Shown: piece after piece, positions 10,432 through 14,856 of the stretch
Layout: each line of letters begins with the position of its first letter
Numbering within the stretch: the first letter of the stretch is position 1
Source: Bacteroidota bacterium
Lineage (GTDB): Bacteria > Bacteroidota > Rhodothermia > Balneolales > Balneolaceae
Direction of reading: 5' to 3'
DNA: 64,000 nucleotides
NCBI GenBank assembly: GCA_027621355.1
Contig: JAQCBZ010000003.1
Coordinates: 1 to 64,000 of the forward strand
Notes under the pieces: generated by a model
Seen by the model: only the letters and a program-made list of their open reading frames with translations
The model's database searches: none
What the model was told of the DNA's origin: nothing
Program-made: the position numbers and the translations under genes

Positions 10432-11766
10432 TTAGTTTGTGGCGTCTCGATCCAAAAACTCCTGATTTAATTGAGTATGACGACTAACCATAGGGATGCG
10501 ATACCCACGAATGAACACATCTTTTATGGTAGAGGTCGTTTCGAAAGGATCGCCATCAACTAATATAAGATTCGCATGTTTTCCGATGTCAATCGAGCCC
10601 AATTTATCATCCACACCCCATAACTCTGCAGGATTGATGGTCACAGCTTTGAGCGCCTCCTCTACACCCATGCCATAAGTGGCAGCATACCCTGCATGAA
10701 AAGGAAGATTTCGAACATTCTCAGTATTGAATGTAGATAGAGAGACATGAACGCCAGCGTTAGCCATGAGCCCAGCGTTTTGATAGGGACGAGCATAGTG
10801 ATCTGAAGATCTAGACGGGGTCACAAGAGCCGTGGCAATTACGGGGATGTCTGCTTCCGCTAATTTATCAGCCACTCTCCACCCTTCCGAAACCCCAGAA
10901 AAAACAAATGAGAGGTCATCTTGTTGAGTTGCCCATTCTAAGGCAGCAAGGATATCCTTTTCGCGGTTAACACGAACAACCAAACGCGCTTCTTGGGTGA
11001 ATAAGTATCGCATCGCTTCCATTTTGGCATTCACATCTGGCTGTGCATCCAGCTCATCTGTTTCAATCGCTTGCCACATCGTATGATAGGCTCTGGCATC
11101 GTCAAAGAGTTCATTAATTTGATCAATGGCCTCATTATACTCCTTTGCAATCTCCTTCTCTGAGCGGCTATCCCACCAGCCACGTTTTCCTGAGGATGGC
11201 CAATTGATGTAGATTCCAGCTCTCTGGTCTATTGACATAGCTTCAGGAGTGTATCCATACAGATCAATCAATGACCCTGTACCCGATACCAATCCACTGA
11301 CAGGGGCAGCTACGACATTGGTCACTCCATCTACGCGTGTGACTGGAATACTCACAGATCCAGGATTAACGGCGGTTTGTGCAATCATTTCAGGATTCAC
11401 AGATCCAACTTCAGCCGCATCGACGGTGACAGTCACAGCGCCAATTTCATTAAGCCCTAATTGAGTTTCAGAGTCGATAAAGCCCGGATACAATCGGTGA
11501 CCTGATCCATCAATCCGGATGATATCGCCTGTTAAGTCGGGCTTCACATTGGACCCAACGTACTCAATCAGTCCATCCTTAACTACCACAACACCTCCTT
11601 GAATCACGTCGGAGGTTACAGGATAGATGTCAACATTCTCTATAATAAAGGTGCCATATTGTGGCTTCTCGGTGATTTGAGCTTCAACAGTTGCAAACCC
11701 GAGAAAAAGGGACATCACAACCACCCATCCACTCCGGCTAAAAAAGGTATAATTCTTCTGATTCAT
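10432..11766 (-). CDS. Secreted amidohydrolase-like protein, metal site degenerate
   Basis: This 444-residue protein has a signal peptide (cleavage after TVEAQ near residue 30) and the amidohydrolase-like fold: an N-terminal beta sandwich, YPGFIDS and a C-terminal segment LGSIDIGKHANLILVDGDPF. The metal-binding HxH of active enzymes is ExQ here (Glu100, Gln102), and the usual catalytic Asp region reads STFNTE, so it is probably not a normal metal hydrolase. Start ATG 11766 is chosen because GAGG precedes it by 9 nt and it gives a clean signal peptide; the longer frame begins at a TTG. It is the third of three tandem paralogues (13254-14693, 11790-13244, then this gene). Confidence 0.82.
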   Translation of the reverse strand: MNQKNYTFFSRSGWVVVMSLFLGFATVEAQITEKPQYGTFIIENVDIYPVTSDVIQGGVVVVKDGLIEYVGSNVKPDLTGDIIRIDGSGHRLYPGFIDSETQLGLNEIGAVTVTVDAAEVGSVNPEMIAQTAVNPGSVSIPVTRVDGVTNVVAAPVSGLVSGTGSLIDLYGYTPEAMSIDQRAGIYINWPSSGKRGWWDSRSEKEIAKEYNEAIDQINELFDDARAYHTMWQAIETDELDAQPDVNAKMEAMRYLFTQEARLVVRVNREKDILAALEWATQQDDLSFVFSGVSEGWRVADKLAEADIPVIATALVTPSRSSDHYARPYQNAGLMANAGVHVSLSTFNTENVRNLPFHAGYAATYGMGVEEALKAVTINPAELWGVDDKLGSIDIGKHANLILVDGDPFETTSTIKDVFIRGYRIPMVSRHTQLNQEFLDRDATN

Positions 11767-11789
11767 GGTCATTTTCCTCAAACGAGTGA

Positions 11790-13244
11790 TTAATGATTGT
11801 GGGTTTGTTCAGTTTGAAGGCCTGATTCAAAAAGAATAAAAGCATCCTCCATACAGGCATCATCTTGACGCCCTCGTACAGCTTCAGAGACTTCTGATTG
11901 AAGATCCTCAAATGACTGATCGTAGCTAATAGCTCTGTCTAGGCGCGCATCTGCGAAATCGGCTTCACGGTTAAAAAGAACTTGCCCATCGACAAGTGTC
12001 ATTTCATTCACAGCGTAGATACTCAGAGGATCTGCAGACCAAATACTAATATCACCATGTTTGCCAACCTCAAGCGATCCCACCATATCGTCTATACCTA
12101 GCTGTTTTGCAGGGTTAATGGTGATCATTGCCAACGCATCGTTTGCTGATATCCCACCATAACGAACAACCTTTGCCGCTTCATGATTCAAATGGCGAAT
12201 TAACTCATTGCTGTCAGAGTTAATGGACGTGTTTACTCCATTTTCGTGCAGAATGGCCGCATTATACGCTGTTGAATAGTACACCTCGAACTTATAGGCC
12301 CACCAATCAGAGAATACGGATGCATTGGCACCTGCTTCTGCAAGCTCTGGTGCAACTTTGAATGCTTCATTGGCGTGTTGGAATGTGTAATTCTCAACTC
12401 CATAATCTTTGAACACATTGACAAGCATGACAATCTCATCTGCTCGATAACTATGACAATGGACAAGGATATTTCCCTTTAGTATATCCGAAATCACTTC
12501 AAGTCGAAGATTCTTTGCAACAGGCACCGGAGGTGCGACCCGATTTGGTCGCCGTTCATGGGCTTCTTTCTGGTCTAGATAGGCTTGTCGCTGGCGATCA
12601 TATTCAATAGCATCATCAAAGATGTCACGAATGACACGCTCAACGCCCATCCTTGTTCTGGGTTGAACACCCGTACCTTGTCCATGCACTCGCGTTGGAT
12701 TCTCACCAAGAGCGAACTTGATGGTTTGAGGTGCTTCTTGAAACTGTAATCCAAACTGATCCGCTCCATATCGAAGCTTCAGTGTGGCGTTTCGGGCCCC
12801 AATGACATTTGCCGATCCATGCATAAGATTAATTGTAGTCACCCCACCTGCCAGTGCTTGGTACATGGCGACATCATTTGGATCAATCGATTCTTTAATC
12901 GTGATTTCAGCCGTCACGGGAGACGTCGCCTCATTCGTAGAGACTGTATTTAAATGGGAGTGTGCATCAATAATTCCAGGCATAACAACTTTGCCCGTGG
13001 CATCAATGACGGGAATGTTAGCTGGGGCGGATAGTTCTTGGCCAATCCCTTGGATAATACCATTTACTATGTACACGTCTGTGTTAGGCAAATCACCCTG
13101 AGTAATAGTTTTCACCAGCCCATTTTTTATCAGTACCGATTGAGGCCCTGCATAGGTAGTGGGTTGTGCCCATACATACGTGAAAGACAGCATCATAACA
13201 GCTGTCAGTAGTCCTTTAAGCGTGGTTGATTTTTGTATAGTCAT
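11790..13244 (-). CDS. Secreted amidohydrolase, intact metal site
   Basis: This 484-residue member of the amidohydrolase superfamily is exported through an N-terminal signal peptide (cleavage after VWAQ near residue 27). The metal motif is intact: MPGIIDAHSHLN with His95 and His97, later His residues in VHCHSYRADE and FQHANEA, and a catalytic Asp in SINSDSNE. The C-terminal VGSLEVGKHGDISIW closes the beta-sandwich domain. Relatives include imidazolonepropionase-like and dipeptidase-like enzymes; substrate not identifiable. It lies between two degenerate paralogues with gaps of 23 and 9 bp, so the three probably form one transcript. Confidence 0.88.
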   Translation of the reverse strand: MTIQKSTTLKGLLTAVMMLSFTYVWAQPTTYAGPQSVLIKNGLVKTITQGDLPNTDVYIVNGIIQGIGQELSAPANIPVIDATGKVVMPGIIDAHSHLNTVSTNEATSPVTAEITIKESIDPNDVAMYQALAGGVTTINLMHGSANVIGARNATLKLRYGADQFGLQFQEAPQTIKFALGENPTRVHGQGTGVQPRTRMGVERVIRDIFDDAIEYDRQRQAYLDQKEAHERRPNRVAPPVPVAKNLRLEVISDILKGNILVHCHSYRADEIVMLVNVFKDYGVENYTFQHANEAFKVAPELAEAGANASVFSDWWAYKFEVYYSTAYNAAILHENGVNTSINSDSNELIRHLNHEAAKVVRYGGISANDALAMITINPAKQLGIDDMVGSLEVGKHGDISIWSADPLSIYAVNEMTLVDGQVLFNREADFADARLDRAISYDQSFEDLQSEVSEAVRGRQDDACMEDAFILFESGLQTEQTHNH

Positions 13245-13253
13245 GTTTATTCC

Positions 13254-14693
13254 TTAGTCGTTATCAATCGTTATTACGTGACCATTGGACACCGTAAACA
13301 GCAATTTTGAATCCTCACTTAACCAATCTTGGCCATGCATTACAATCATATTTGCAAGGCTACCCTCTGCGAGTGTACCGAGTCGCTCAATTCCAAGAAT
13401 CATCGCGGTGTTGCTAGATAGAATATTGAGTAGCTCTGTTGACGTAACCCCTCCCTGCTCATGATAAAATCGAAGAGCCTCGTAGAAGTCCGTTACTTTG
13501 CCGTCAAATCCATATGCACCAATCATCAATCCAGCATCTAACATCGATCGAAGAGCGCCTTTTTTTGCATCCCAAGCAGATGCTTGCCGTGTTCTAAATG
13601 CTTTCTCTTCTTCTGAGAGTTCTTCTTCGGATGGCTCCTCGTTTTCTACTGTAGTCTCATCTTCCGTAGCTGTTTCATCTGTAGTCTCATCTTGGGCTTC
13701 ACTTTCTTCTTCAGCTGCCTCTTTTTCTTCTTTTTGAATCCAATCTGGGGCTTCTGGTTTGTCAAACTGAAAAAGCACTGGAGTCGCAGATTGGGTAAGC
13801 TTAGAGGCAATGGGTGTCAAATCTGCACTCGTAGCAAAGATCACAGAGAAATCAAACTCATCAGCAAGCAAAAGTACACGCTCAGCGTCTTCAGGGCTAT
13901 CTACAGATGCCATAAGAGGCTTTTCACCATTAAGTAATGGAAATAGTGATTCTAAGACTGCATCCCTTTGTGGAGCTTCCATTTGTTCTGCCCCTGAACC
14001 TTCAACATATCGAATGTGTTGTTGCAAAGCCTCAGCATCGTATAATAGTTGCTTGAAACGGGCCATGATGGCCATATCCGTGGACGGGTAGGCTCTTCCA
14101 CCTGCACCTTCAAATTGGAATACGTAACCAAGAGCAGACTCGTACAAAGGTGACTCGTATCCAGAAAACGCTTCTTGAGCTTGTGTGAAGAACATGCTGC
14201 TCTGACCTGGTAACATTCTTCCTTGATGAGAGCTATTTACCGCGCCAAATCCAGCTGACTGATGAGCTTTTATTGATGAATGGGATACATCGAACTCTGA
14301 TTCTGCAACTCTGTGGGGTTGGATTCCAGCGCGATCATAGGTTGGGTCAGAAGGTCTATCAGGATTACCATAGGAGGAAGGTGCCACAGCATCAGGCATA
14401 CCAGCATGATTTAGACCATCAATAAAGGCTGGGAGAATGAGTAGTGAGTCTCCTTCAACCAACGTTCTAGCACTACTTGGAAGTGTCTCATCAGTAGATA
14501 CACGTCGAATGACGCCATCTGCCCAGTGTATGGTTTGATTGGTTTTGACTGATCCATCAGATTGGATGACATTGACACCTTGTACTCCATAAGAAGGTAG
14601 GGTCGTTTGTGCAGTCGCTGTGAGTGAGCTTCCCATTAAAAGGGTAAGTCCTAGAATCCAGGATGTCCCACTCATTCTTTCATTACATTTCAT
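13254..14693 (-). CDS. Secreted amidohydrolase-like protein, degenerate, with acidic insert
   Basis: This 479-residue protein has a signal peptide (ends ATAQ near residue 29) and an amidohydrolase-like frame (LLILPAFIDGLNHAG). The first metal His is Leu94; only His96 of the HxH pair remains. The later catalytic region also lacks a clear His/Asp set. A strongly acidic low-complexity insert of about 45 residues rich in Glu, Thr and Asp (DNA about 13590-13740) lies before the final helices. The ATG at 14693 or at 14675 could be the start; the open frame extends to a TTG at 14741 with no supporting signal. It is first of the three tandem paralogues. Confidence 0.78.
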   Translation of the reverse strand: MKCNERMSGTSWILGLTLLMGSSLTATAQTTLPSYGVQGVNVIQSDGSVKTNQTIHWADGVIRRVSTDETLPSSARTLVEGDSLLILPAFIDGLNHAGMPDAVAPSSYGNPDRPSDPTYDRAGIQPHRVAESEFDVSHSSIKAHQSAGFGAVNSSHQGRMLPGQSSMFFTQAQEAFSGYESPLYESALGYVFQFEGAGGRAYPSTDMAIMARFKQLLYDAEALQQHIRYVEGSGAEQMEAPQRDAVLESLFPLLNGEKPLMASVDSPEDAERVLLLADEFDFSVIFATSADLTPIASKLTQSATPVLFQFDKPEAPDWIQKEEKEAAEEESEAQDETTDETATEDETTVENEEPSEEELSEEEKAFRTRQASAWDAKKGALRSMLDAGLMIGAYGFDGKVTDFYEALRFYHEQGGVTSTELLNILSSNTAMILGIERLGTLAEGSLANMIVMHGQDWLSEDSKLLFTVSNGHVITIDND

Positions 14694-14856
14694 TTTGTGT
14701 ACGTTCGAGGATGATGTTTCATTGAGAAATTCAAATAACAAACATTCAAATTCAAAACAAAGAACAAAGCATCTCTTCTGCTCAACAAAATGAAAATCAC
14801 TTTTTGTACGTTATGATTTACACACATACTGCTCACAGCAACTCTATTTATTGTTC

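Follow-up and report, generated by a model that had tools for sequence, protein, structure and literature searches.

Collapsin response mediator proteins are dead relatives of dihydropyrimidinase, of the amidohydrolase fold, that lack metal ligands and assemble with their paralogues. The entry 3OOQ is what we take to be TM0814 (a locus name), an amidohydrolase of Thermotoga maritima. In the ATCase-pseudo-dihydroorotase of Pseudomonas aeruginosa, according to an excerpt of the published account (PMC7053772), an inactive chain of the amidohydrolase superfamily is needed for the activity of its partner in a hetero-oligomer. Here we describe three adjacent genes, A, B and C, in the window, that is, the whole stretch of 64,000 nucleotides that was analyzed. 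A search of the open-licence literature, a body that leaves most subscription journals outside its scope, returned nothing on the trio or on 3OOQ.

Layout, export and fold of the trio

Genes A, B and C lie head to tail with intergenic gaps of 9 and 8 bp (Table 1). A preliminary description had presented them as tandem exported amidohydrolases a few bases apart, and this was borne out: all three are minus-strand open reading frames with signal peptides, and each product exceeds the gathering score of Pfam PF01979. Translation of gene A probably starts at the ATG at 14693, where the preliminary description had placed the end of the trio. The signal peptides end at an A/Q junction (TATA/QTT in A, YVWA/QPT in B and TVEA/QIT in C), which matches the Bacteroidetes Q-rule pattern as given in an excerpt of PMC5837995. 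By a crude pattern search this signature is present in 115 of 121 A, 116 of 122 B and 128 of 156 C proteins, and in 41 of 43 fused A-B proteins, compared with 136 of 709 flanking open reading frames. Promoter and terminator scans gave no signal above shuffle level.

Table 1. Positions of the trio genes and of the residues at the metal site within the window
Feature	Position	Strand	Description	Basis
Gene A	13254..14741	minus	Exported amidohydrolase-fold pseudoenzyme, first of the trio; 495 aa from TTG	
Gene B	11790..13244	minus	Exported metal-dependent amidohydrolase, 484 aa, predicted catalytic subunit	
Gene C	10432..11781	minus	Exported amidohydrolase-fold pseudoenzyme, third of the trio; 449 aa	
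B HxH	12954..12962	minus	His95-Ser-His97 (DAHSH, residues 93-97)	Sequence, conserved in relatives
B Glu181	12702..12704	minus	Proposed metal ligand	Invariant in B; also in aligned 3OOQ; role by analogy
B His264	12453..12455	minus	Proposed metal ligand	Conserved in relatives
B His290	12375..12377	minus	Proposed metal ligand	Conserved in relatives
B Asp344	12213..12215	minus	Proposed catalytic or ligand Asp	Conserved in relatives
A LxH	14406..14414	minus	Leu-Asn-His (residues 110-112; DGLNH) replacing HxH	Sequence and alignment
C ExQ	11461..11469	minus	Glu-Thr-Gln (residues 105-107; DSETQ) replacing HxH	Sequence and alignment

The best sequence match of both B (E 1.1e-54) and C (E 3.8e-34) is T. 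maritima 3OOQ, aligned over nearly the full length, and A matches it weakly by sequence, in its C-terminal part. An AlphaFold2 model of the window A protein, built on an alignment of 65 A proteins (64 of 105 complete relatives plus the window protein), gave a complete domain with a pLDDT of 89.3 and a pTM of 0.85. The solved structure closest to this model is again 3OOQ (Z 41.3, rmsd 2.4 over 358 residues, 18% identity; Foldseek E 5.3e-23), the next entry having a Z of 23.5. Since 3OOQ is nearest to A by fold and to B and C by sequence, the trio is of one lineage; A, B and C belong to the amidohydrolase superfamily fold and to the TM0814-like lineage.

Two features of A vary between relatives. 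The window A protein carries an acidic low-complexity insert (about residues 336-378, approximately 13605-13733) that is shorter or absent in many relatives. In many lineages A is about 560 aa long and bears at its C terminus an additional, beta-rich domain of about 100 residues, missing from the window A (long examples are L094:3790-5475 and L099:3823-5511); the same beta domain sits between the halves of A-B fusions.

Matches of A, B and C to NCBIfam equivalogs (hutI, nagA, dihydroorotase, hydantoinase and others) all fell far below the curated cut-offs. We rejected an assignment of function from family models, as the sub-threshold matches, for relatives of C as for the trio, were to many unlike enzymes. 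The trio does not belong to the pseudo-dihydroorotase/ATCase family: the dihydroorotase models likewise scored it far below cut-off, and no ATCase partner was found among the adjacent genes of the window, which by Pfam encode an FAD oxidoreductase, an ABC transporter and a GWxTD protein. The GWxTD-domain protein (PF20094; 14851-16233) is divergent from the adjoining gene A, and the same cluster occurs at 18 of 121 loci. Neighboring genes were also considered as a guide to function and set aside, as flanking-gene clusters are shared only within lineages, the largest reaching 23 of 121 loci. At one Algoriphagus locus (L099:8278-11582), C is followed by genes for an NlpC/P60 protein and an M28 peptidase, both absent from the window; the peptidase is GCPII-like by its PA and TFR-dimer domains. 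These Algoriphagus neighbors are a weak hint at peptide substrates, and from the superfamily we would guess at an amide or peptide-like bond as the target.

The metal site of B and its counterparts in A and C

Numbered by B, all six of H95, H97, E181, H264, H290 and D344 are present in each of 97 non-redundant B proteins. In the B halves of 43 natural A-B fusions, D344 is present in 42, the remaining one reading X at this position, and the other five ligands are found in all 43. By their likeness to superfamily members we propose these six residues as putative metal ligands. The catalytic set of HxH, Glu or Lys, His, His and Asp is complete in B and incomplete in A and C: aligned to B, both window proteins have lost the equivalents of E181, H264, H290 and D344. 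The preliminary description had recognized that the middle gene alone keeps HxH (His95, His97), other His residues and the Asp, and that the outer two read ExQ and LxH with no clear catalytic Asp. These assignments stand, with H264, H290 and D344 present in B, ETQ in C, LNH in A and D344 lost from both; E181 is a further site of B that it had left unnamed.

The loss extends well beyond the window. At most two of seven scored positions are matched in any A (n = 107), fused A half (n = 43) or C (n = 136), and none at all in 73 of the 107 A proteins, 31 of the 43 fused A halves and 89 of the 136 C proteins. These counts follow removal of near-duplicates, which reduced A from 123 to 107, B from 124 to 97 and C from 158 to 136 and retained 43 of each fused half, and they exclude fragments below the score cut-offs. 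Every non-redundant relative examined repeats the loss pattern of the window, which is therefore more than chance. The naming of A and C as amidohydrolases by Pfam is misleading, given that the sites are gone across the families examined.

Distribution, gene order and ancestry

Profiles of the three proteins were run against 148 genomes that sample the phylum evenly. The 86 genomes with A are the same as those with B, and 85 of them also have C. The initial tally was 94 genomes, from which eight with matches only of the second-pair type (see below) were left out (G058, G086, G117, G121, G129, G166, G167 and G174). In the 86th genome, G064, a run of N covers the end of B and beyond, where an adjacent C would lie; this genome is therefore uninformative about C, and we rejected it as an exception lacking C, the sequence there being unreadable. 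Degenerate copies standing alone, which the preliminary description had named as a finding that would count against its view, were looked for in the same 148 genomes, and neither A nor C was seen without B. Co-occurrence of the dead and active chains is thus obligate in the sampled genomes.

A adjoins B in 86 of 86 genomes and is often fused to it. C adjoins B in 75 genomes and lies elsewhere in 10, where the dead chain is retained despite having left the operon; in G096 and G111 the unlinked C and B share one large contig. Among the best 80 of 560 confirmed B-profile loci in named genomes, 72 have the order A-B-C, one more has it with broken frames, and the other seven run into a contig edge. 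Fragments below 80 bits, such as a partial A in L105, were ignored in this count of gene order, and counts from the two locus collections were never summed, as they overlap in source genomes. The genera among these best 80 include Balneola, Gracilimonas, Fodinibius, Algoriphagus, Fulvivirga, Echinicola and Christiangramia, and all names are of Bacteroidota type bar a few given as "bacterium" and one metagenome-assembled genome labeled Sulfuricurvum (L142), which we suspect to be mis-binned. On one Saprospiraceae contig (L098:384-4857), A and C as assembled are each split into two frames and B is intact.

We collected 43 A-B fusions of about 1000 aa each, and no fusion of C to A-B was seen. A tree of 79 domains places each of A, B and C in a single clade, and in all three the fused types are sister to the unfused (SH-aLRT 98-100, FB 89). 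The three clades are old and distinct. Because the split between fused and unfused types is repeated in each of them, the trio predates the split and has been passed down together. Averaged over pairs from 124 loci, identity is lowest in A (0.31), intermediate in C (0.43) and highest in B (0.54), making A the fastest-evolving chain. The trio is a real, old and widespread arrangement.

A second, related tandem pair of amidohydrolases was observed at seven fetched loci (L204-L210) and also occurs in genomes without the trio. The first chain of this pair has the HxH and later His residues in seven of seven loci, and the second chain has lost H97, H264 and H290 in seven of seven. For the degenerate chain of this pair (P2) together with A and C, the tree of 79 domains, being unrooted, allows one early loss of the site as well as independent losses.

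A proposed hetero-oligomer, its alternatives and known systems

We consider it likely, with a probability of about 0.7, that A, B and C encode one exported hetero-oligomer in which catalysis falls to B, and A and C serve as pseudoenzyme subunits. A and C would have arisen by ancient duplications of the same TM0814-like enzyme and would fill the positions that identical chains take in a homo-oligomer, giving an exported (periplasmic) hetero-oligomeric metalloamidohydrolase. B would be the sole catalytic chain, holding the metal and doing the chemistry. A would pack against B in a fixed manner, sometimes as one polypeptide, and C would bind the A-B unit and stabilize, complete or gate the assembly. 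The fold, the loss of the site, the co-occurrence, the gene order, the natural fusions and the old, distinct clades are observed; the physical A-B-C complex, its stoichiometry, the role of C, the location past the export step and a periplasmic amide or peptide-like substrate are all parts that we infer.

An AlphaFold2 model of one of the natural fusions, L061 (1001 residues), built on an alignment of 42 of the 43 fused proteins (one with N being omitted), has a pLDDT of 87.8 and a pTM of 0.85. Such a pTM would be unlikely were the halves not placed relative to each other, and this single value suggests that the two domains of about 450 residues each hold a defined relative placement. The view of the preliminary description that pseudoenzyme partners or subunits were plausible draws support from the 43 fusions, the L061 model and the constant co-occurrence. 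Co-occurrence and fusion show functional linkage rather than a stable complex. The association of C is the weakest point, as no C joined to A-B was seen and 10 genomes have C unlinked. The fast divergence of A also counts against the proposal.

An alternative that we think unlikely, if worth serious attention, is that A and C are separate exported proteins that have acquired new functions, in binding or as non-metal enzymes, and act in the pathway of B with no stable complex. C has a near-invariant polar set of its own (E112, D121, E124, R149, Y232, Y333, R357, N358 and K401) that could point to a separate function, and both its unlinked position in 10 of 86 genomes and the extra C-terminal beta domain on A in many lineages would suit such independence. 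The natural A-B fusions, with their confident packed prediction, argue in the other direction for A, as does the conservation within A itself. B has dozens of near-invariant polar columns; A has few, most of them structural by their look (Q45 where the signal peptide is cleaved, D108, Y218, R288 and others). Gly, Pro and structural residues make up most of the conserved columns of A, and no candidate for a catalytic set is among them.

It is very improbable that A and C are themselves catalytic through a hidden or alternative metal site. Single residues of the old site do occur, with His at H97 in 20 of 107 A proteins and Asp at D344 in 29 of 136 C proteins, yet no A or C exceeds the two of seven positions given above. 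A hidden site in the degenerate copies, the other finding that the first reading of this DNA had named as counting against its view, was sought in the conserved alignment columns and was found in neither: no column in A has His or Cys in at least 50% of proteins, and the two His columns in C (54% and 64%) both lie away from the ligand positions.

We give equally little weight to the idea that A or C helps B to fold, to load metal or to be exported and stands outside the mature enzyme. Export alongside B and constant presence with B are what such a helper would display, but the covalent fusion leaves A on the mature B, so that this explanation is possible for C only. That A and C are paralogues in decay, mere historical remnants in the operon, is scarcely credible: A does evolve fastest of the trio, but the chains form old separate clades, both dead chains are kept as open frames with signal peptides in all readable B genomes over deep time, and even a relocated C is retained.

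If the hetero-oligomer that we favor is real, it would be an undescribed three-part exported enzyme in a large part of Bacteroidota. With the A-B pair in 86 of 148 sampled genomes, expressing B by itself would then give a false picture of a common exported enzyme. Ready constructs for asking why pseudoenzymes are kept are at hand in the natural fusions and in lineages whose C is unlinked. More tentatively, and with the odds somewhat against it, we speculate that across this large part of Bacteroidota a single amidohydrolase is active only when complexed with two dead paralogues, A being a fixed partner, often fused to B, and C an exchangeable gate or sensor, and that the pairing of live and dead chains, seen also in the second pair, is a general design of the lineage.

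Among known systems, 3OOQ resembles B in having the HxH, Glu, His, His and Asp as aligned with it; it differs from the trio in being a single type of chain with an intact site, whereas the trio consists of three exported paralogues, two of them degenerate. Collapsin response mediator proteins are animal proteins of the dihydropyrimidinase family, for which B, at 58 bits, lies well under the cut-off of 393. As far as the excerpted account describes it, the P. aeruginosa ATCase-pseudo-dihydroorotase has in common with the putative trio complex the association of a dead amidohydrolase-fold chain with an active partner. That partner is an ATCase, of another fold and cytoplasmic, whereas in the trio the active and dead chains are paralogous, the dead chains are of two kinds and all are exported.
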